Positions 3,535 through 42,809 of a stretch of 64,000 nucleotides of DNA are shown here, piece by piece. Positions within the stretch are counted from its first letter, which is position 1. Each line of letters begins with the position of its first letter. The stretch is from Heterostelium album PN500. Lineage: Eukaryota; Evosea; Eumycetozoa; Acytosteliales; Acytosteliaceae. The notes beneath the pieces are model-generated. The model searched no databases. It was not told the origin of the DNA and was given only the letters and a program-made list of their open reading frames with translations. The stretch covers positions 1,302,001 through 1,366,000 of the forward strand of contig NW_008805071.1 in NCBI RefSeq assembly GCF_000004825.1, written 5' to 3'. Made by a program: the position numbers and the translations under genes.

Positions 3535-4111
3535 TGCTAAATGTTTGTTTGTTGTTTATAACTATTGTGTATTTATTTGATCTATTAAAATCAAATGATT
3601 TTGTAAATTAAAGAAATGAGTTAGTGTGCCTCAAAAAAAAAAAAAATCAATTCTTTTCTTATTAATTACACACTTTTTTTTTTTTTTGATCATCAAATTT
3701 TATAATTATATTTTTGAAAATTCACTGAATTTGTTGACATCTGCTTTATAATATTATTTCTCTAAAATTAAACAACAAGTCATCAAGATTGATAATTTAA
3801 TATTTATTGATGGAATTTAAAAAACAAAGAATTCTAAACAATTGTTCTTTGTTTTTCATTGATAACAATTGAAGTACTTCAAAAAAATAAAATAAAAAAT
3901 AACAACAACAATTTAGAATTCTAAAAATGAAACATTAATCTTGAGGGTTATAGCCTTAGAAGGTAAAGTTAGTATTTAATAAGATTATATTATGTTTTTT
4001 TTTGTTTTTGTTTAATTTTTTTTTTAAAAAGGATTTTAATTATTATTAATGAGGTACAATGTCTTTAAAGAAAAATTAAGTTTTTTTTTGATTCGAAAAA
4101 TCTCCTATTGT
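3535..4111. other. Spacer: promoter of TPR gene and 3' flank of Rac1
   Basis: This is AT-rich DNA with poly-A and poly-T runs (3632-3645, 3665-3688). No coding-like stretch or RNA gene was recognised. It should hold the start region of the TPR gene and the 3' UTR of Rac1. Confidence 0.5.
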
Positions 4112-26920: not shown

Positions 26921-29704
26921 CTAAACATCTGAATAATATTCTGGTACACAGTTGGTTGATAATAGGTTGATTTGTGCTTGGTCCAAACCATCTTTACTGT
27001 AGTACCATACATATGATTCGCCGGAACTCAAACCGAGCGATCTTATCTGTTGTGGGAAGTGGATGACTTCGTCTCTTGGTTTGCTTCCATATTCTATGCC
27101 TTGTGCGGAGTTGATACGGTCACCGATTGACATGGTGACATCGTAGAGTCTGGTGCCGCTTGGCGAGGTGTTGATTACCACCACTGCCCAACTGGTTATA
27201 CGACGACCGTTCACCACTCCGCTTGCTGTCTTTTGTTGAGTCAGTGTTGCCTTGCATTGCATTTGGGAGTTGGCGTTGTCCTTAGGTTGTGAACCATGAC
27301 AGCTGTCTGGGTAGTTGGAAAATCTGATCGGTGACATCTCTGTGCCCTGAGAGAAGTAGGTGAATGAGAAGAAACTACCCGGTCGGATGATAACACCTCT
27401 TGGTAGAGAGAATGTGAGTGGACTGTTCGGTGTTGGAACCAATCCATTGACATTGGTAACTGGATCTTCGAAGCTGATATCCAAACTGGTGATTGGTGTA
27501 CTTCCTTGGTTGATAATCTCAACCCACCAGATAATACTGACAGAGAATCCAGTACGAATGAATCCAATTCTCTTTTCATTGTAGAACAGGGAGCATTTGG
27601 TGTTTACATCGTTGGGTGGAGGAGCACGAGTGGGGATTGGAACGGGGTTGACCACTGGTGTTGGAACAACCGCTGGTGAATAGGTAGGTGGAACTGGACG
27701 GTGAATGATATCATCACATATAACATAGTAGTCATCGGGTTCACTGTTTCCAATGTAGACGATTCTCTCCAGTAGTCCTTCTGGTTGAGGAGTTCCAGTC
27801 TCCCAGACAGTCTCGATATTGATATTCAATGAATTTCCAGGTACACTATAGTATGTTCGCTTGAGAACTGTAATGGTTCTATGAGCGAACGGTTCAAAGT
27901 TTATAATTTCCAAACTCTTTAAGAAAAGAGCTGGCGTTGTGAGATTTTTCAGAATGGTTTGTCTTAATTCAATTCCACAACGGTATTGCTCTCCTGGCTT
28001 TGGAACATTTGGATTGGGTGACCTGGTTGGAATTTCTCTTGGAGGAGTATTGTCAAGTGTTGGTCTTGGAGTGAATGGTTGAGCTGATTGGGGTTGAGGA
28101 GAAGGACCAGTTGGAATAAAAGCTGTTATAGTTCCCGTAGCATCTGGTAACTGAGTGTGTGTTGGTGGACCAGATGGAATAAAACCTGTTATTGTTCCTT
28201 CAGGATTTGTAGTTGGGTTTGGTTTTGGTGAGTTTGATTGAGAAGGTGGTTCAAATGGTTTTGGAATTGGCTTTTCTGTTGGTTTGTCTGTTGGTTTCTC
28301 TGTTGGCTTTTCTGTTGGTTTATCAGTTGGCTTTTCAGTTGGTTTGTCGGTAGGCTTTTTATCTTTATTCTTTTTATCTTTTTTATGCTTATGTTCATGC
28401 GGTTTGTCTGTTGGCTTATCAGTTGGTTTATCTGTTGGGTTATTAGTTGGCTTCTCTGTTGGGTTATTTGGTTTATCTGTTGGGTTATTAGTTGGTTTGT
28501 CTTTTGGTTTATCAGTTTCTGTTGGCTTATTAGTTTCTGTTGGCTTATCAGTTTCTGTTGGCTTATCAGTTTCTGTTGGCTTATTAGTTTCTGTTGGCTT
28601 ATTAGTTTCTGTTGGCTTATCAGTTTCTGTTGGCTTGTCTTTTGGTTTATCAGTTTCAGTTGGTTTGTCTTTTGGTTTATCAGTATCAGTTGGCTTGTCT
28701 TTTGGCTTATCAGTTTCAGTTGGTTTGTCTTTTGATTTATCAGTTTCTGTTGGCTTGTCTTTTGGTTTATCAGTATCAGTTGGCTTGTCTTTTGGTTTAT
28801 CAGTTTCTGTTGGTTTATCAGTTTCTGTTGGCTTGTCTTTTGGTTTATCAGTTTCTGTTGGCTTGTCTGCGGGTTTATCGGTTGGTTTGTCTGTTTCAGT
28901 TGGTTTGTCTTTTGGTTTATCAGTTTCAGTTGGCTTGTCTTTTGGTTTATCAGTTTCTGTTGGTTTGTCTTTTGGTTTATCAGTATCAGTTGGCTTGTCT
29001 GCGGGTTTATCGGTTGGTTTGTCTTCTGGCTTACCAGTTGGCTTATCAGTTGGTTTATCAGCTGGCTGCTTATCTGTTGGGTTATTAGTTGGTTTATCTG
29101 TTGGGTTATTAGTTGGTTTATCTGTTGGGTTATTTGGCTTATCTGTTGGGTTATTAGTTGGTTTATCTGTTGGGTTATCAGTTGGCTTATCTGCTGGGTT
29201 ATTAGTTGGCTTATCTGTTGGGTTATCAGTTGGCTTATCTGTTGGTTTATCTATTGGCTTATCTGTAGTTGGACTTTCTGAGGGTTTTTCTTTCTCTGTT
29301 GTTGGTTCATTTGAAGTATTCTCACTTACTGGTTTTTCTGATGAGGAATCTGGTTTGTTATCACTGTTTGAGTTTAAGAAATTGCCCAATTTCTGAATTT
29401 GATTAAATATGTCACTCTCTTTGTCTTTGAGTTTTAATGAATTTTTTTGAGATTTCATAAAACTCAATTTGTTGTCTTGTGAGCTTGGTATTTTCTCAAT
29501 ATCGAAAAGAGGGTCCAATATTACTTCCAACACTACTTTTGTATCACCTTCACTCGCTGGAAGTGAATCTACCAATTCCAGTAAAGTTGCCATATTCTGG
29601 TCGGTAGCCATAATCTTTGGAGCATTTGGAAATTTATTGGTGTCCTCTGACACTACCAAATTGAAAAGAAATAAGGTATATAAAAAAAATAATAAAACTT
29701 TCAT
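26921..29704 (-). CDS. Secreted protein with CBM49-type modules and a KPT repeat stalk
   Basis: A single exon of 927 residues. It has a signal peptide (MKVLLFFLYTLFLFNLVVSE), a Ser/Glu-rich segment, a low-complexity stalk at about 147-480 built of DKPT, TETDKP and NNPTDKP units, a Pro-rich linker, then three Cys-containing beta-rich modules at about 570-660, 700-800 and 813-925. The last two match the CBM49 cellulose-binding fold (KCSLFYNEKR..SIIWWVEIINQGSTPITSLD; MQCKATL..ITSWAVVVINTSPSGTRLYD). CBM49 modules occur in dictyostelid stalk, spore-coat and sheath proteins. The Thr/Pro stalk is likely heavily O-glycosylated. A role in the cellulose matrix of fruiting-body cells is inferred. GTGGGTGTG boxes lie about 420-480 bp upstream, as in post-aggregative genes. 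Confidence 0.88.
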   Translation of the reverse strand: MKVLLFFLYTLFLFNLVVSEDTNKFPNAPKIMATDQNMATLLELVDSLPASEGDTKVVLEVILDPLFDIEKIPSSQDNKLSFMKSQKNSLKLKDKESDIFNQIQKLGNFLNSNSDNKPDSSSEKPVSENTSNEPTTEKEKPSESPTTDKPIDKPTDKPTDNPTDKPTNNPADKPTDNPTDKPTNNPTDKPNNPTDKPTNNPTDKPTNNPTDKQPADKPTDKPTGKPEDKPTDKPADKPTDTDKPKDKPTETDKPKDKPTETDKPKDKPTETDKPTDKPADKPTETDKPKDKPTETDKPTETDKPKDKPTDTDKPKDKPTETDKSKDKPTETDKPKDKPTDTDKPKDKPTETDKPKDKPTETDKPTETNKPTETNKPTETDKPTETDKPTETNKPTETDKPKDKPTNNPTDKPNNPTEKPTNNPTDKPTDKPTDKPHEHKHKKDKKNKDKKPTDKPTEKPTDKPTEKPTEKPTDKPTEKPIPKPFEPPSQSNSPKPNPTTNPEGTITGFIPSGPPTHTQLPDATGTITAFIPTGPSPQPQSAQPFTPRPTLDNTPPREIPTRSPNPNVPKPGEQYRCGIELRQTILKNLTTPALFLKSLEIINFEPFAHRTITVLKRTYYSVPGNSLNINIETVWETGTPQPEGLLERIVYIGNSEPDDYYVICDDIIHRPVPPTYSPAVVPTPVVNPVPIPTRAPPPNDVNTKCSLFYNEKRIGFIRTGFSVSIIWWVEIINQGSTPITSLDISFEDPVTNVNGLVPTPNSPLTFSLPRGVIIRPGSFFSFTYFSQGTEMSPIRFSNYPDSCHGSQPKDNANSQMQCKATLTQQKTASGVVNGRRITSWAVVVINTSPSGTRLYDVTMSIGDRINSAQGIEYGSKPRDEVIHFPQQIRSLGLSSGESYVWYYSKDGLDQAQINLLSTNCVPEYYSDV
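28262..29265 (-). repeat. Coding repeat array, KPTDKP / TETDKPKDKP units
   Basis: About 1 kb of imperfect 12- to 30-nt units inside the CBM49-protein gene, built from codons for Asp, Lys, Pro, Thr, Glu and Asn. Higher-order blocks (TETDKPKDKP and NNPTDKP) recur. The opposite strand is also open over most of this span as a consequence of the repeat. Confidence 0.95.
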
Positions 29705-32799: not shown

Positions 32800-35798
32800 A
32801 TGGTATATAATAGTAATAAAAGAAAGACTACTAGTAGTAGTAGTGGAGGAGGTGGTGGGAGTGGAGGTAAAGCTAATAACAATAGTAGTAGTCAAAATAA
32901 TAAAAATAGTAATATATCACCTACACAATTGAGTATTTATAAATCTGTGAGTGATAAGGTATTCCCTTCGTTCAGTGGGCGACAAGCATCGATGCTTGAA
33001 TTCTTTCCAAAGAAAAAGGTTGAATCTAAATCATCACAGGAGGTAGAGGTTGTGGAAGATGACAACGGTGTCATAACAAAGACAACTACAACCACTACCA
33101 CTGTAACAACCGTTGTTACCAAAGTAATGTCAACACCAACAACATCACCATCACCATCACAACAACAACATCAACAACAATCACAAAAACTATTATTATC
33201 ACCTATTCCATTCGATATTTCCAATACCACAACAAGTCAATCAACAACAACAACACCATTACAATCACCTCAATCTCAACAAGCATCACAAATAATAGAT
33301 TTAGAAGATGAAGATGAAGATGATAAAGATGAACAACATCACTTTTTAAAGAAACAAAAAAGAACTTCAATAACAGACAACAATAACAATAATAGTATAG
33401 TTATAAAAGATGAAATAGTATTGATAAAAGATGAACCTAATAATATTAGTAGTACTCCACCGTCGTCGTTATCATTGTCAGATTCACCTACTCAAGCATC
33501 ATCATCATCACCATCATTGACTTCAGAAGAGAATGCAGATTACTCTAGATACTATTTGAATGATTTCATCACTGTTACAGACACTGTTATCAGTAGAGAT
33601 TCACATCTGTTTGAAGAGGAGGAGTTGTCAATGGTAGAGAGATTCCACTCGATGAACGACAGTGCGCGACATCTCTTTGTTCGGCTGTACAACCGAAAAG
33701 GTCCGTGGTTCCGGCGAGATTCAATATTCTACGATGAGATCAAAAATATCAAGAGCAGCTGCGATGAGTTGGTGACCTGTCAGTTTCTTCACTTGTACGA
33801 CACCAAACACGACGATTACAATGAACTGGCACCAATCCTAACGGTCTCAACCATCAAGAAGATCATCGGTAACGCTTCGCTACCGAAAGACTCTACGAAA
33901 CCGGCGCTGCTCGAGCTGCTGAAAGGCAATCCCAGTAGAGGACAATCGACACTGATGTTTAACATCAGTTCGCAATCTTCGCCGAAACAGCGATACAAGA
34001 AACTGGTGGAGGATAACATTGGCGTATGTTTCAAAGTCAACGATAGCGTTGTCAAACTCTGGAGAATGATTCATCATCTTTTCTTTTACAATTGGCAAAT
34101 ACATAACTCGACGTCGCTCATTGTTAACAATATTATGGGTATCGAATTTCCAGAGTATAAGATATGGGATGGTAATAGCAATAGCAATAGCAATAACAAT
34201 AATAATAGCAATAAGAGTAAGAGTAATAATCATGGAGAATCACGAAATATCTTTGAAACAAGAGCATCGCTTTTGGAGTTTGAAGATGTCAAGGCGATAG
34301 AGGAGAGATTCGACAGTACCAACATTAAGTCGACTGGAAACGATCAAGATGAGTTGAATACAGTGATATCAATGATAAATGATTGTGCAGAGAAGTTATC
34401 AAATATGACAAATAATAAATTGAGCAATAATAATAATAGCAACAACAATATTGGAAGTAGGAATAACATTACATTTGCACTAAGATTTACACCTGGTTGG
34501 GTTTATACACGTGTTTTAACAAGTGGAATTGCACTGCTCGAGAAACTTAAGGAGTATGATAAGGCTATATTCCATCTGATGGTACTGACAGAGGTGCCTT
34601 TCTGTCCTGGAAAACGTGGACATTGGTGGCAGCGAATGATCATCAATATGAAACATCTGAATCGAAGTGACGATGCTCTTGTAATTTGTGAACGTGCATT
34701 AAAAGATGAAAAAGTGACAAGTGGTGATAGATTAGCTTTGGAAAATCACTATTTACAATTGACAAGGTAAATAATAATAATGTTGATTTAATATCTATAA
34801 ATAGAGTTATAACTAACTGTTTTCATATATCTAGAAATAAAAATATTAATGTACCAGACGGTCTTATTAAAATGGCACATACAATAAGAAAAGCAAATCC
34901 AGTCACTGTTTATTGTGAAAAAGTGGAAACTGGACTGCCAGGCCGTAAAAGTAGATACTTTATAGAGAATCCAGAGGATAAAGAGAAATCACCAATTATT
35001 ACCAATGTTGAAGTATGTTCAAAGTTTATTGAACCTCAAAAATTATTATTTATGAAACTTTACTAATAATAATATTCCAATAATAATGTTTATTTTCTTT
35101 TTTTAATCTTTAGGGAGTTGCACTGAATTATTATGCAACGGAATGTAAAGAAAAGTGGAAAGGTATTCATTGTGAAACCTCTATATTTCTATCGATGTTT
35201 GTTTTGTTTTTCTGGGATATCATTTTCGACTCTGACATTCCTTTTGTATTTCAATCACCGTTCCAAGATGCACCTCTGGATTTCGGAACAAGCGAATTCT
35301 ATATATCAAGAGCGCACCTAATCAACAAAAGAGCGGAAGAACTCAAAAATAGTACACGTGATGAACGTAAAGCAATACTTGAATATATCTGGGAGAAATA
35401 TCATGGAAGAGTAGTTAGATGTATAAATTGGGATAAATATTCTTTAGAGTAAGTGTTGTTTTGTTGTTTATAAAAATATTTATATTTAATCTAAAACTAT
35501 ATTAACTAACTTTATTATTATTAGACAATTAATTGATATCTCAGATCATGTTGGAGGTGGATTGATTGGATATTGTTCAAAGCTGATAACTGAAGACTAT
35601 ACATGCTTTTCACATGGTATGCCCGATCTTCTTTTGTGGTCTCGTAATCCCGATGATCAGTTAGAAGAGTCCTACTTTATTAAATTTGTCGAAGTAAAAG
35701 GCGCAGGTGACACACTCAGCAATCAACAAAAAGTTTGGATCGATATGTTATTGAATTTTGGATGTGATGTTGATGTTTGTCACATTAAAAATAAATAA
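32800..35798 (+). CDS. fan1: FAN1 structure-specific nuclease
   Basis: Four exons, 32800-34766, 34835-35012, 35114-35448 and 35525-35798, give 917 residues. The N-terminal third is Ser/Thr/Asn-rich and holds QASMLEFF (62-69), a perfect PCNA-interaction motif. A SAP-like helix pair follows (KIIGNASLPKDSTKPALLEL), then TPR-like helices and the FAN1-specific ALNYYATECKEKWKGIHCET and FFWDIIFDSDIP blocks. The C-terminal VRR-NUC domain keeps the PD-(D/E)XK residues: Asp861 in GMPDLLLW, Glu883 and Lys885 in VEVKG, with a few extra residues between. No UBZ zinc finger is visible. FAN1 trims flaps and unhooks interstrand crosslinks in the nucleus. The spliced exons align end to end with human FAN1. 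Confidence 0.96.
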
Positions 35799-36312: not shown

Positions 36313-39300
36313 ATGAACAGATTAAAGAAAATCGAGGGAAACCGACAGAGAAGTCACAGTTTCGATATGATTGTGATGGACGAGGTTACCAAGATAATAT
36401 TGGATTTGGATCATCAAACAAATAATGCACAGAACAACAGTAGTTCAACACCGAATTTAACAGCTTTAGATAATTCATTACCACACCCACCTCATTCACC
36501 TCGTGGTGGACAATCACATCTATCACCTCTAAATATAGTTGGATCAGGAGGAGGATTAGGAGGAGGAGGATCTGCTCCATCATCTCCAATGCAATCAAGA
36601 CATCATAGTTTCAGTATTCATCCATCCACCTCAAACACATCAATTTCCTCAAGTATGCTTCCACCGTCTTCAGAGCAAACGTTAAATCCACCAACATTCT
36701 CACTCTCTGTAGATACCACACAAAAAACAATGACAACACAACAACAGCAACCAGGTGTAGCTATTCCATCTTCACCAAAACCACCAACAGCTCTTGAAAA
36801 TCTTCATCACATATATAAACCACAACCACACCATATTTCCATATCGATTCTCGATAAACCTGTACAAATGAATGAAAGATCACCCAGTTTCAGTAGTCTG
36901 CCTGGCGAGTTGACAGCCAGTGGACACCTGAAACGAAGTAGTTTCGCAACACCATCGCCACCACCATTCAATTTGGATGGCGCTTCCGTAAGCAACCCTC
37001 ACCACTCCAACGGCAGTGGAAATACACCGCCAGCCTCACCGTCGCGAAGAAAATCGCTGGCCGCCTCCGTAACAATTTTACCACCGACCAAGAAATCACA
37101 GAGTTTTCGACGTGGACTTCTCTCGGTCATTGAATCGCCATATTATATCACACTGATGGTGCTTGCCATCCTCTTTATTCTCTTCATAGACGACATCATT
37201 GGAATTTGCGGTTCGCCATACTCCACCATTCAAAACTATATAATCTTGGCGGTGCGTCTGCTTATCATATTGTTTTTCACACTGGACATTGTAATGAGTG
37301 TATTGGTATACGACCGTCACTACTACAATAACACGGTGGTCGTTTTCCTCGATGTAATATCGACGCTCTCCATCATCCCCGACGTAGTGTTTGGCTTGCG
37401 CAAAGAAGCGATTCCCTACGAGCTGCAAGTACTGGCGATCGGACAGGCCGGAAGGATCATCCGGTTCTGCGGCGCGTACATCCGGGTGTCGCTGGTTGCA
37501 ACGCTTCACCACCGTATATGGCGACCACGACAGAAAACACAAGACAATCTTCAGGTGGAAGCAAGCAAACTCGGCGACAAACTCATAAGAGAGGTCATCA
37601 ACAAAATAGTGTTTCTAGTGCTTCTCGTTTTCTTTGCAACACAGCTACTCTCACTGGACCGCACCGATCTCTATGGCTACACAGCATCACTATCGAACCT
37701 ACAGTACCAACTAGCCAGCAATCCAACAACATTCACAGACTCTGTCAACAACTACATCTCTAGCAACTCGCACAACAACATCGATATACTGTTCCTCTCC
37801 GTCGCCAACCAAGACTTTTACAACCATCAATCTAAAATCGTTAATCTACAATTCAACGCAATCTTAAAATATGATTATCAATCATCATCTATTTGGTTAG
37901 ATAATTCTGTAAGTTGTTGTAATAACAAAACAAACCACCTGAATATTTATCTATCTAACTAAATAACTAACTAACTTATTATTTCTAGTATAATGTTAGA
38001 ATATCTAGTATTATGCATTTATGTTTAACAATATTTGTTATATTGCTATTGATTATTGTTAATATTATGATTATTAGAGATGCACACAAGATTGTTATCA
38101 ATCCACTGGAGAATGTTTTAGCGATTGTAAAGACATTGTCGAAACAAAATGCAGCAATACAGAGAAAGAGTGAAATTTTGAATGATCTAAAGCTAGAGAG
38201 TGAATCAAACAACAACACCATCAATCAGATCGATGACGATGAATCTGACGAAGCAGACTATCTCCTTGGAATGTTGAGTGACATCGATGGTTCACTTCAA
38301 GCTGCAAAAGAAAAAGTAGAGGAAGAATCAATTCAAAACTCAAGACTCAAGAGTGAAATCGAAGATCTATTCGCTGAGAAGTTTATATTACAAATTCATT
38401 TAGATGTAAGTTACACCATTAATTAAAAAGGTTTTTTAAACACTTTACTAATTACTTATTACTTTCATCTTTATATTTATATAGTCTGTACTTAGAAACA
38501 TCGATTTCAATGATAATATTGGTGATATGTTGAAAAAGAATAGAGAACTGTTGAATATGAATGCAAAACAATTACCGGAAGGTGTTAATTCCGATTCAGT
38601 TAAATTCAAGGTCGATGAAAGCAATCCAGAGAAATTCATAATTCTCTGTGCAACATTGGATCGTTTGATCGAGCGACTCACCAAGATAGACAATCACGAT
38701 ATGAAGTTTGCAAATGTATTCCTCCTGACATTTAGAAGATTCGTTTCACCCATTGAATTGATGGAGTTGTTAATCATTAGATTCTGTAGCACACCAGCAA
38801 TGGAGTTAACCACAACACTACTTCAAATGGATGACTATGTTAGTGGTTGGAGAACATCGAAACAAGATCAATTAAGAATAAGGTAAAGTTAAATTAAACA
38901 TAACATATCAAGATATTACATTTATTAATACATTATACTTTAGTGTTTTCAATGTTATTAAATTGTGGATTGCTAAATTCTTTTGGGATTTCGAGAATGA
39001 GGAGCTATTGGAGTTACTTCAATATCTATTAAAGACAATTATGCCAAGATTCAATATGGATCGATATGCAGTACATCTAGAAGCACTATTGAGAAGAAAA
39101 CAAGAGAATTACGTTGCTTTGGTAGAGTATCAACCTTTGAAACCGCTGAGTCAAGAAGACATTGCAGAGATGATGGTCGTCGACGATCGTGTTCTCTTCA
39201 ACTACGAAGTCAACGACATTGCAACACAGATCACTCTCATTGAATTCGAGATGTTCAAATCGATCCGACCAGAGGAGTTGTTGGACTTGGCTTGGACAAA

Positions 39301-39913
39301 GAACAAGACAAAGTTCAGAACATCACCGAATATCGCGCGATTCACAGAGCATTTCAACAACGTTAGTTTCTGGATTCAAATGCAAATCGTCAAGTATGGC
39401 AAAGTGAAGGAGCGTGTCTCTGCGATGAAGCGTATCATTGCTCTCGGTGAATCGTTCCTTCAACTCAACAACTTCTACGGTGCAATGGAGGTATTGTCGT
39501 CGTTGGAGTCGGCGTCGGTGTCGCGTCTCTCCAAGACGTGGGAGCAGCTACCATCGGCGTCGCTCCAGTCGTTCCAGGCACTGCAGCGACTCCTCTCGCC
39601 AAACAGCAGCTACAAAGAGTATCGTGAACGTCTGAAACAAACGACATCCGCGTGCATTCCATACCTCGGAGTGTATCTGACGGACTTGACATTCATCTAC
39701 GAAGGCAATCCGGACTACCGTGAAGACAAACTGATAAACTTTACCAAACAGCGTGAGATTGCAGCGACCATTCTATCGATTCAGCAATTCCAAAACACTC
39801 TTGAATATTTCCATGAAGTCAACAACAAATTGAAATCTCAATTGGATTTGCGTGCACCCGATACAGAAACCATCTATAAGATGTCTTTGACTGCAGAACC
39901 CAGAAGAAATTAA
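36313..39913 (+). CDS. Transmembrane RasGEF with a voltage-sensor-like membrane domain
   Basis: Four exons, 36313-37908, 37989-38405, 38485-38882 and 38944-39913, give 1126 residues. Residues 1-265 are low-complexity Ser/Pro/His. Membrane helices follow at about 277-300, 309-333, 342-361, an amphipathic S4-like helix with spaced Arg (GRIIRFCGAYIRVSL) near 376-392, then 430-449 and 541-560. The order resembles an ion-channel S1-S6 layout without a recognised pore filter. A HAMP-like or coiled-coil linker (NPLENVLAIVKTLSKQ) leads to a RasGEF_N module (about 700-800) and a full CDC25-type catalytic domain (about 890-1110: LIEFEMFKSIRPEELL, FWIQMQIVKYGKVKERV, PYLGVYLTDLTFIYEGNPDY). It should load GTP onto Ras-family proteins at a membrane. 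Voltage or ligand control is inference. Confidence 0.85.
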
Positions 39914-41318: not shown

Positions 41319-42809
41319 CTATAAATAAACTCCTTCAATTTCAAAAGTTTGAACGGTTTGAGAGTTAAAAGTTACACTGAACATTTTGTCTTGAATATAG
41401 GTATCTTCATGATAACTGTATAAATCACCATTGCCATTGGTCTCTGTTGCCCAACGCGGAACTATACCACCATAGCCTCCATTGACGGTGGTAAACTTGG
41501 ATAGATTAAAAGTGATGGTCTGAGCAGAGGATGCAATGTTGGCAGAGACAATTACCAACTTGTTGTTCACAGAGTCAAAGGCAGCAACGGAATTACCGTC
41601 ACTCGATTGGATGATTGTCATACCATGACGAATGTGACGCGAGAATTGAGCTAGCACATAGTATTTGGTGGCAACGGCACCAATGCTTGGAGGATTGGCA
41701 TTCTCATCTGCTTCAATCATACCCCATCCACTAATATCCAGAACTTGCCAATATACCCAAGCGGTTGGATGCAGTTGTGCCAAATCAAGTAGTAAATTAG
41801 TAGCCAACGAAAGACCAGTGATATCACCTTCTCCATATTCAGAGTTCCACAATACTTTTCCTTGTGAGTTTACTGCTTCGTAGAGTTCTGATCTCGGTCC
41901 TTTGGTCAGCTCGTATCCATGAACATTGACCTTATCAACCGCTTGTTTAATTGATGAATCAAATGAGTTCCATGTATCTAGTGCACGTCTATAGTTATTC
42001 TCATCGCTGGCAGCCAACATTGCGGTAAGACGACGAGAGTCAATCTCTTTACGCATATATGGAATGACGTCCTTCTGCGCTTCAACATCGAAATGGCAAC
42101 CCTCTTGCGATCCAAATGCAATCCAGAAATCACCGGATGGTTCGTTGAATGGATCGATCGATGTGAAGCTGATATTCCAGTTTTCCGCTGCATACTGAGC
42201 GATTGTCGCCATGTAGACTGTGTGATTCTGGTAGTTCCAAGTCTCAAGATTATTCATTGCCGGCAGATCCGCTCCACTTGGATTCAAATTGTAGGTCATC
42301 CACCAAATAGGACTGTTACTAAACAGTTCAAAGTACTGTACACCTCTATCGCGTGCCATTGCCATCATATTTCTCTGGAGTGGATCGGCAGCCCAATTCC
42401 AACTGTCGGATTGCGGATCTTCCGATGCCCAATTCAACCAGTAGCCTTCGACTTGGCGAGATCTCTTGATCTCTGGTGACTGTACCATTTTGCGACCGAA
42501 CGACTCCACCCAAGTCGATGCACCGGCATTATATCTGACAATGTTTAAACCAAGACCTGGCAGCACTGTTGTACCATCGAAATAGGTAACATTCTGTGTA
42601 GTAAACATAATATCTGCTAGGACAGTGTTGTTTCCATAGGTTTGAGCCCACCAAGCAAGCGATGTTCCAAATCCTTCCCACACACCCCAATTTTGAGTTG
42701 GATTAAATGTAGCTGTATAGGATCCTGTGGCGGCGGTACCGCTAACAATAGTTGATATAGCACATAATAATACAATAATTGTAATAAAATTAATAATTAA
42801 CTTTATCAT
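41319..42809 (-). CDS. Secreted GH30-family glycoside hydrolase
   Basis: A single exon of 496 residues with a signal peptide (MIKLIINFITIIVLLCAIST, cleavage near Gly-Thr-Ala). The mature protein starts with the GH30 opening GVWEGFGTSLAWWAQTYGN. The catalytic pair is visible: acid/base Glu223 in DPFNEPSGDFW and nucleophile Glu324 in WNSEYGEGD, about 100 residues apart as in the family. A C-terminal beta-sandwich ends the protein. The N-terminal signature and SIDPFNEPSG pattern resemble endo-beta-1,6-galactanase-like members more than glucosylceramidase proper, but the substrate cannot be read from sequence. It is likely an extracellular or lysosomal enzyme acting on bacterial, fungal or own-matrix glycans. 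It converges on the small gene with a 127-bp gap. Confidence 0.9.
   Translation of the reverse strand: MIKLIINFITIIVLLCAISTIVSGTAATGSYTATFNPTQNWGVWEGFGTSLAWWAQTYGNNTVLADIMFTTQNVTYFDGTTVLPGLGLNIVRYNAGASTWVESFGRKMVQSPEIKRSRQVEGYWLNWASEDPQSDSWNWAADPLQRNMMAMARDRGVQYFELFSNSPIWWMTYNLNPSGADLPAMNNLETWNYQNHTVYMATIAQYAAENWNISFTSIDPFNEPSGDFWIAFGSQEGCHFDVEAQKDVIPYMRKEIDSRRLTAMLAASDENNYRRALDTWNSFDSSIKQAVDKVNVHGYELTKGPRSELYEAVNSQGKVLWNSEYGEGDITGLSLATNLLLDLAQLHPTAWVYWQVLDISGWGMIEADENANPPSIGAVATKYYVLAQFSRHIRHGMTIIQSSDGNSVAAFDSVNNKLVIVSANIASSAQTITFNLSKFTTVNGGYGGIVPRWATETNGNGDLYSYHEDTYIQDKMFSVTFNSQTVQTFEIEGVYL

Follow-up and report, generated by a model that had tools for sequence, protein, structure and literature searches.

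A RasGEF of Heterostelium album with a six-segment, probably voltage-sensor-derived membrane head and its RhoGEF-PH paralogue

Introduction

Voltage sensors are carried by channels, sNHE, a cyclase with a K+ pore, VSP and Hv1, according to the text of a 2023 review (PMC10651576), and the legend of its Fig. 1 states that all reported voltage-sensor proteins are shown; neither 'GEF' (guanine nucleotide exchange factor) nor 'exchange factor' occurs in the accessible part of that review. Among the enzymes, Ci-VSP has a voltage sensor covalently joined to a potential-regulated enzyme (PMC10651576), in this case a lipid phosphatase with four segments (PMC4322731), there are protozoan adenylyl cyclases that combine a voltage sensor with a K+ pore (PMC10651576), and the Phytophthora Ion_trans-cyclase proteins PPTG_13136 and PPTG_13761 have been described as lacking a pore helix (PMC12223298, 2025). 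Here we analyse a gene for a Ras exchange factor (RasGEF) at 36313..39913 of a window of 64,000 nucleotides of Heterostelium album PN500 (GCF_000004825.1, contig NW_008805071.1, positions 1,302,001 to 1,366,000, forward strand), whose product differs from Ci-VSP in having six segments and a GEF, and from the voltage-sensor nucleotide cyclases of stramenopiles and alveolates in its output. An earlier reading of the window from its letters alone (the original prediction) had already pointed to similar heads on protist cyclases; the Phytophthora proteins provide a published counterpart, likened by description only.

RasGEFs of dictyostelids have been catalogued before. A 2005 survey covers 25 RasGEFs of Dictyostelium discoideum (PMC1273635), which share with the present protein the RasGEF amino-terminal and RasGEF domains; its Fig. 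1, according to the legend, marks predicted transmembrane segments as blue bars and may include an orthologue marked in this way; the accessible text names no voltage sensor. A GEF catalogue of five dictyostelids (PMC8923023) lists common partner domains, with no voltage sensor among them in the part of the article available, and probably includes the present gene as a RasGEF if its host is among the five species. No mention of a head-GEF fusion occurs in the accessible parts of PMC3188802 and PMC4758236. A voltage-sensor GEF was not found in the open-access literature searched, supplements lying beyond that search. What would be new is the kind of enzyme output to which a voltage-sensor domain is joined, the known carriers being channels, a phosphatase, an exchanger and cyclases.

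Results and discussion

A RasGEF preceded by a membrane head

Splicing of the four predicted exons gives an open frame of 1126 residues without a stop, and the length, the coordinates and the first intron of the original prediction proved correct on splicing and translation, all three introns having GT-AG borders (Table 1). We put the probability at about 0.6 that the product is a six-pass membrane RasGEF with a voltage-sensor-derived head, one member of a RasGEF/RhoGEF pair, which works by the coupling proposed below. The architecture and the descent of the head, taken by themselves, are very probable.

Pfam searches bear out the RasGEF_N and complete CDC25 catalytic domain that had been read from the letters: RasGEF_N (E 6.4e-22) precedes a RasGEF domain matched over its entire profile (E 5.5e-63, profile positions 1-181 of 181). 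Exon 4 aligns with the CDC25 domain of RasGRF1 (E 8e-44) and with SOS1 (E 4.5e-43), RLSKTWEQLP of the window protein being aligned gap-free to RLDHTFEQIP of SOS1. By its domain content the protein is a RasGEF of the CDC25 family, and exchange on Ras is predicted. SOS1 and RasGRF1 share the CDC25 catalytic half but have no membrane head; they are soluble proteins that are recruited to membranes.

The head lies at about residues 256-563. Hydropathy analysis gave strong hydrophobic segments at about 281-299, 310-328, 342-360, 428-446 and 543-561, and the arginine-bearing, less hydrophobic S4-like stretch GRIIRFCGAYIRVSL at 380-394 forms the fourth of the six head segments, in agreement with the five hydrophobic segments plus S4-like helix of the original prediction. 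Two further, weak hydrophobic segments are located inside RasGEF_N.

The genome (32.9 Mb in 39 contigs, including the window) contains at least 39 RasGEF matches, which fall into 28 places including the window when neighbouring rows are merged. For the other 27 places, the 5 kb leading up to the domain (only 2.2 kb for a place at the end of a contig) were scanned for open reading frames (ORFs) of at least 120 residues; introns were ignored, and hydrophobic peaks closer together than 19 residues were merged. At 11 of these 27 places some ORF has at least one hydrophobic stretch, with no more than two separate hydrophobic places per ORF; exon 1 of the window gene has four. ORFs were read for five of the 11, of which two (L046 and L057) have a single strong segment in front of the RasGEF domain and look like single-pass receptors. 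A membrane-spanning RasGEF is therefore not unique in this genome, where the general statement that RasGEFs are soluble or peripheral fails.

As to these two genes themselves, L046 (G000:C7:1413427-1418427) has its RasGEF match (E 2.9e-36) and one strong transmembrane segment in an ORF from position 3673, while its upstream ORFs between 2355 and 3638 contain many N-glycosylation sequons and resemble, by eye, IPT/TIG-type ectodomain repeats, which makes it a possible single-pass receptor RasGEF. L057 (G000:C6:1-2218; ORFs 347-727 and 776-2218) has a RasGEF match at E 2.9e-21 and one transmembrane segment, and its upstream exon seems, by eye, to start with a signal peptide.

A RhoGEF-PH sister gene carries the same head

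A search of the genome with the window head returned the window itself and one other place, L023 (E 2.4e-13), and the reverse search with the L023 head returned the window (E 1.0e-15), the match reaching from S1 to the end of the loop between the fifth and sixth transmembrane segments (TM5 and TM6) that lies in exon 1. Exon 2 extends the reverse match weakly (E 0.158), the sole TAG there being the intron acceptor. By these searches in both directions the six-segment head is found on only two genes of the genome, and its recurrence exceeds what chance would give. In the search with the L023 head, a BK-like gene was touched as well (E 0.0128). L023 encodes a RhoGEF domain (Pfam, E 1.5e-47) followed by a PH domain (E 1.7e-6), and its head is 25% identical to that of the window. 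The two proteins share the six-segment head, the loop, the juxtamembrane motif and the acidic linker; they differ in output, which in L023 is RhoGEF (DH) plus PH, and in S4, which has six arginines in L023 and three in the window protein.

In L023, an intron of 81 nt at the end of S1 (L023:7332-7412) happens to be open in frame and was recognised because it forms an insertion against the window head. The first exon was placed tentatively, as several acceptors keep the frame open. From the 3' side of this intron, S2, S3, S4, TM5, the loop, TM6, the linker and RhoGEF-PH lie in one open exon, so that the fusion of head and GEF is there independent of a predicted splice. The pairwise head alignments span intron 1 of the window gene into exon 2, and the join across this intron, on which the original prediction of a fusion in one spliced frame depended, is backed by the paralogue because the part from TM5 through loop, TM6 and linker to the GEF is one open exon in it.

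Anatomy of the head and proposed coupling

Charged residues of the S1-S4 region are conserved between the two genes well above background. With segment borders as set in the charge-bias analysis, eight of the ten charged residues of the window protein are invariant against the paralogue, compared to 13 of 80 other residues (Fisher p 9e-5), the exceptions being R315 (K in the paralogue) and E370. The invariant positions comprise D293 and D294 in S1, F322-x-x-D325 in S2, D347 and P356-D357 in S3, and R381, R384 and R391 in S4, so that acidic counter-charges in S1-S3 (D293/D294, D325, D347) and the aromatic-x-x-acidic element of S2 (F322 and D325) are present. We take the F-x-x-D of S2 together with the aspartate of S3 to match the charge-transfer centre motif of voltage sensors. 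The S4 of the paralogue has arginines at 130, 133, 136, 140, 143 and 146 (spacing 3/3/4/3/3), and the three arginines of the window S4 (spacing 3/7) align with 133, 136 and 143.

The TM5-TM6 loop of the window protein is acidic, about 93 residues long and conserved in patches with the paralogue (DILFL...Q..Y...ILK...W); it gave no Pfam match above cut-off, and N-glycosylation sequons number none in it and one in the paralogue loop. Just ahead of S1, residues 255-278 contain four K+R and one D+E. From this charge bias, both termini are predicted to be inside and the acidic loop outside. Pfam searches of exon 2 and of the TM6-linker stretches of both paralogues gave no HAMP match with a limit of E 10, so the HAMP-like linker that had been proposed after the last helix was not borne out. 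The two GEF domains were all that Pfam placed above a cut-off in the window protein; the best sub-threshold matches, among them BAR in exon 2 (E 0.023) and Vpu in the TM6 stretch of the paralogue (E 0.0015, 18.7 bits, cut-off 24), were taken as chance helix matches.

In the coupling that we propose, the head would consist of two parts, an S1-S4 bundle descended from a voltage-sensor domain and a TM5-loop-TM6 two-helix unit with the loop in the place of a channel pore, and the acidic linker would lead from TM6 into the RasGEF_N and CDC25 domains. A change in membrane potential would make the S4 arginines move past the acidic side chains of S1-S3, or a ligand would bind the TM5-TM6 loop, or both; the TM5-TM6 arrangement would then shift, and the linker would relay this shift to the GEF, so that membrane-located Ras would be loaded with GTP. 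For the RhoGEF sister, voltage sensing is plausible; for the RasGEF, which has lost half of the S4 charges, it is a weaker inference, and real voltage control is doubtful. A ligand sensed by the TM5-TM6 loop is just as likely an input. Only tentatively, the two genes might be regarded as a pair of voltage-gated exchange factors, for Ras and for Rho/Rac, on which potential acts via an intrinsic sensor. If true, a voltage-sensor-derived head on a RasGEF and a RhoGEF would be a direct candidate for the route from electrical cues to Ras/Rac activity in amoebae, and membrane potential would act directly on two GTPase switches that control how cells polarise and move.

In the strongest competitor, which we hold to be less likely than not, S1-S4 of the RasGEF would be a decayed voltage sensor that serves as anchor or dimeriser only, while the TM5-TM6 loop reads a ligand or a mechanical cue in the manner of two-helix receptors. 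That just three of the six paralogue S4 arginines are kept would fit this reading, as would the conservation of loop patches between two genes with different GEFs and the presence in this genome of at least two other RasGEFs that resemble single-pass receptors. The conservation of the membrane charges, however, is unexpected for a mere anchor, and the absence of a Pfam match above cut-off in the loop also counts against this alternative. This alternative overlaps the ligand branch of the preferred explanation, and the odds of the readings do not sum to one.

Relation to voltage sensors

The relation of the preferred six-pass, voltage-sensor-derived head to known sensors is seen most directly in the paralogue. 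The spliced L023 head matches Ion_trans at 34.3 bits (E 1.9e-8, profile positions 7-122 of 241) over a stretch of 186 residues and at 31.4 bits over one of 355 residues, that is 9.3 and 6.4 bits above the cut-off of 25 bits, and the match is confined to the S1-S4 (voltage-sensor) half. In the six-frame scan of the genome, the L023 place matches Ion_trans at 31.9 bits. A phmmer search of the PDB with the L023 head found only Hv1 (E 0.0043 unspliced, 0.01 spliced), and a profile of the two heads, run against 177635 PDB sequences, selected Hv1 (5oqk) at E 1.1e-4, with E 0.77 for the one other match listed. The Hv1/VSOP proton channel, the nearest solved sequence to the two-head profile, is described as a voltage sensor alone without other functional domains (PMC10651576), whereas the window head carries TM5-loop-TM6 and a GEF. 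A phmmer search of the PDB with the window head by itself gave a single, meaningless match (E 1.3).

Comparison within the genome was made with a profile of five voltage-sensor stretches, namely BK-like, Hv1-like without S1, two TPC-like repeats and L017, the labels being our assumption from reading the sequences by eye; as control, 1000 local shuffles in blocks of 10 residues were scored. The window head reached 27.1 bits, a score attained by none of the 1000 shuffles, with the reversed window at 14.8 bits, and the paralogue reached 36.5 bits, again with none of 1000 shuffles at that level (best shuffle 29.9). In single comparisons, the window beat all shuffles only against the Hv1-like stretch (23.9 bits; typed without S1) and the paralogue only against BK, its score being reached by 146 shuffles for Hv1, 20 for TPC1, 33 for TPC2 and 46 for L017. 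The two-head profile beat all shuffles for both BK and Hv1 and was reached by 24 (TPC1), 9 (TPC2) and 50 (L017). We regard these shuffle and profile comparisons as support for voltage-sensor kinship, not as proof.

Besides the two head genes, the genome carries an Hv1-like (L019), a BK-like (L013) and an unplaced voltage-sensor-like (L017) gene, all named by eye; they come from the Ion_trans scan of the genome, in which the L019 match is below the cut-off.

Several results weigh against the preferred explanation. By itself, whole or in parts, the window head gave no Ion_trans match in Pfam up to E 10, and the window is absent from the 12 Ion_trans hits of the six-frame scan of the genome; the unspliced frame of L023 gave no match by hmmscan, the match appearing once spliced. 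At the positions of the first, fourth and sixth S4 arginines of the paralogue, the window protein has Q, A and L. Its margin over the best shuffle against the five-member profile is 0.2 bits (27.1 versus 26.9), and in single comparisons its score was reached by 13 of 1000 shuffles for BK, 85 for TPC1, 132 for TPC2 and 148 for L017. An hhalign comparison of the two profiles gave a probability of 52% over 48 columns. AlphaFold models, made without relatives, have a helix pattern that agrees with the segments, with a mean predicted local distance difference test (pLDDT) score of 44.9 over residues 256-532 and 56.9 over S1-S4, too low to test the fold as the original prediction had suggested, and none of the Foldseek matches of these low-confidence models reached E 0.001. 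No homologue beyond the genome was confirmed among 168 pattern matches in viral_contigs and 280 in genome_contigs, which are not eukaryote collections and were scanned once each with two peptide patterns each. Two sets of Foldseek matches were not used: for the first model, Hv1 (3wkv) at the top of three matches with E 8.1, and for the second, 49 matches at E 1.6 or worse, none of them a voltage sensor by description.

The original description of the head as voltage-sensor-like is thus partly supported by the Ion_trans match of the paralogue, the Hv1 match of the joint profile and the conserved charges, and is left open to question by the missed Ion_trans match and the thinned S4 of the window protein itself. 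The missed Ion_trans match lends some weight to chance likeness, in which an unrelated membrane domain would score through hydrophobic helices with a few charges, as do the uninformative Foldseek matches, the margin of 0.2 bits with the five-member profile and the failure of most single comparisons to beat their shuffles. We nevertheless consider chance improbable, given the clear margin of L023 over the Ion_trans cut-off and the selection of Hv1 by the joint profile from the whole of the PDB set.

An ion channel bearing a RasGEF, with TM5-TM6 as an S5-pore-S6 unit, is much less probable still. Six segments of which the first four are voltage-sensor-like, and the precedent of the protozoan cyclases with a K+ pore (PMC10651576, in its accessible text), would suit it, but the Ion_trans match of L023 ends at profile position 122 of 241, thus covering the voltage-sensor half only, on which ground a pore channel was rejected, and the long acidic loop belongs to no Pfam pore family. 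With this loop sitting in the pore's place, the head is, by its sequence, not a channel. Least probable of all is an artefact that joins a membrane gene to an adjoining RasGEF gene, since, although the fusion rests on three predicted introns, these leave little space for a gene boundary at 61-80 nt, the head alignment crosses the first of them, and L023 has head and GEF in one open exon.

Feature layout and neighbouring genes

Table 1 Coordinates of the RasGEF gene in the window and of its paralogue.
Feature	Position	Strand	Content	Basis
RasGEF gene	36313..39913	+	four exons, 1126 aa; membrane head and RasGEF	
N-terminal tail	36313..37074	+	residues 1-254, low complexity, presumably cytosolic	translation, charge
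S1-S4, predicted voltage-sensor-like bundle	37147..37497	+	residues 279-395	paralogue alignment, charges; homology via paralogue
TM5	37588..37653	+	residues 426-447	hydropathy
TM5-TM6 loop, first part	37654..37908	+	residues 448-532 of 448-540, acidic	paralogue alignment, charge
Intron 1	37909..37988	+	80 nt, GT...AG	
Exon 2	37989..38405	+	loop end, TM6 (541-563), juxtamembrane V-I-x-P-[LI]-E motif, acidic linker	
Intron 2	38406..38484	+	79 nt, GT...AG	
Exon 3	38485..38882	+	end of linker, most of RasGEF_N (724-829)	Pfam
Intron 3	38883..38943	+	61 nt, GT...AG	
Exon 4	38944..39913	+	RasGEF_N end and full RasGEF/CDC25 catalytic domain (895-1074)	Pfam
RhoGEF-PH paralogue	L023:4828-7548 (G000:C3)	-		head search, domains

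An Rfam scan of the whole window gave no matches. Upstream of the RasGEF gene, the neighbour at 32800-35797 (plus strand) appears by eye to encode, in several exons, a FAN1-type repair nuclease. Further away, 26921-29704 (minus strand) encodes a long, secreted-looking protein with KPTD/TDKP repeats, and the open frame of 370 residues on the opposite strand (28284-29396, plus) is probably a by-product of this repeat. On the other side, a secreted-looking protein of 496 residues at 41319-42809 (minus strand) resembles, by eye, a glycoside hydrolase of the GH30 or endo-galactanase type.

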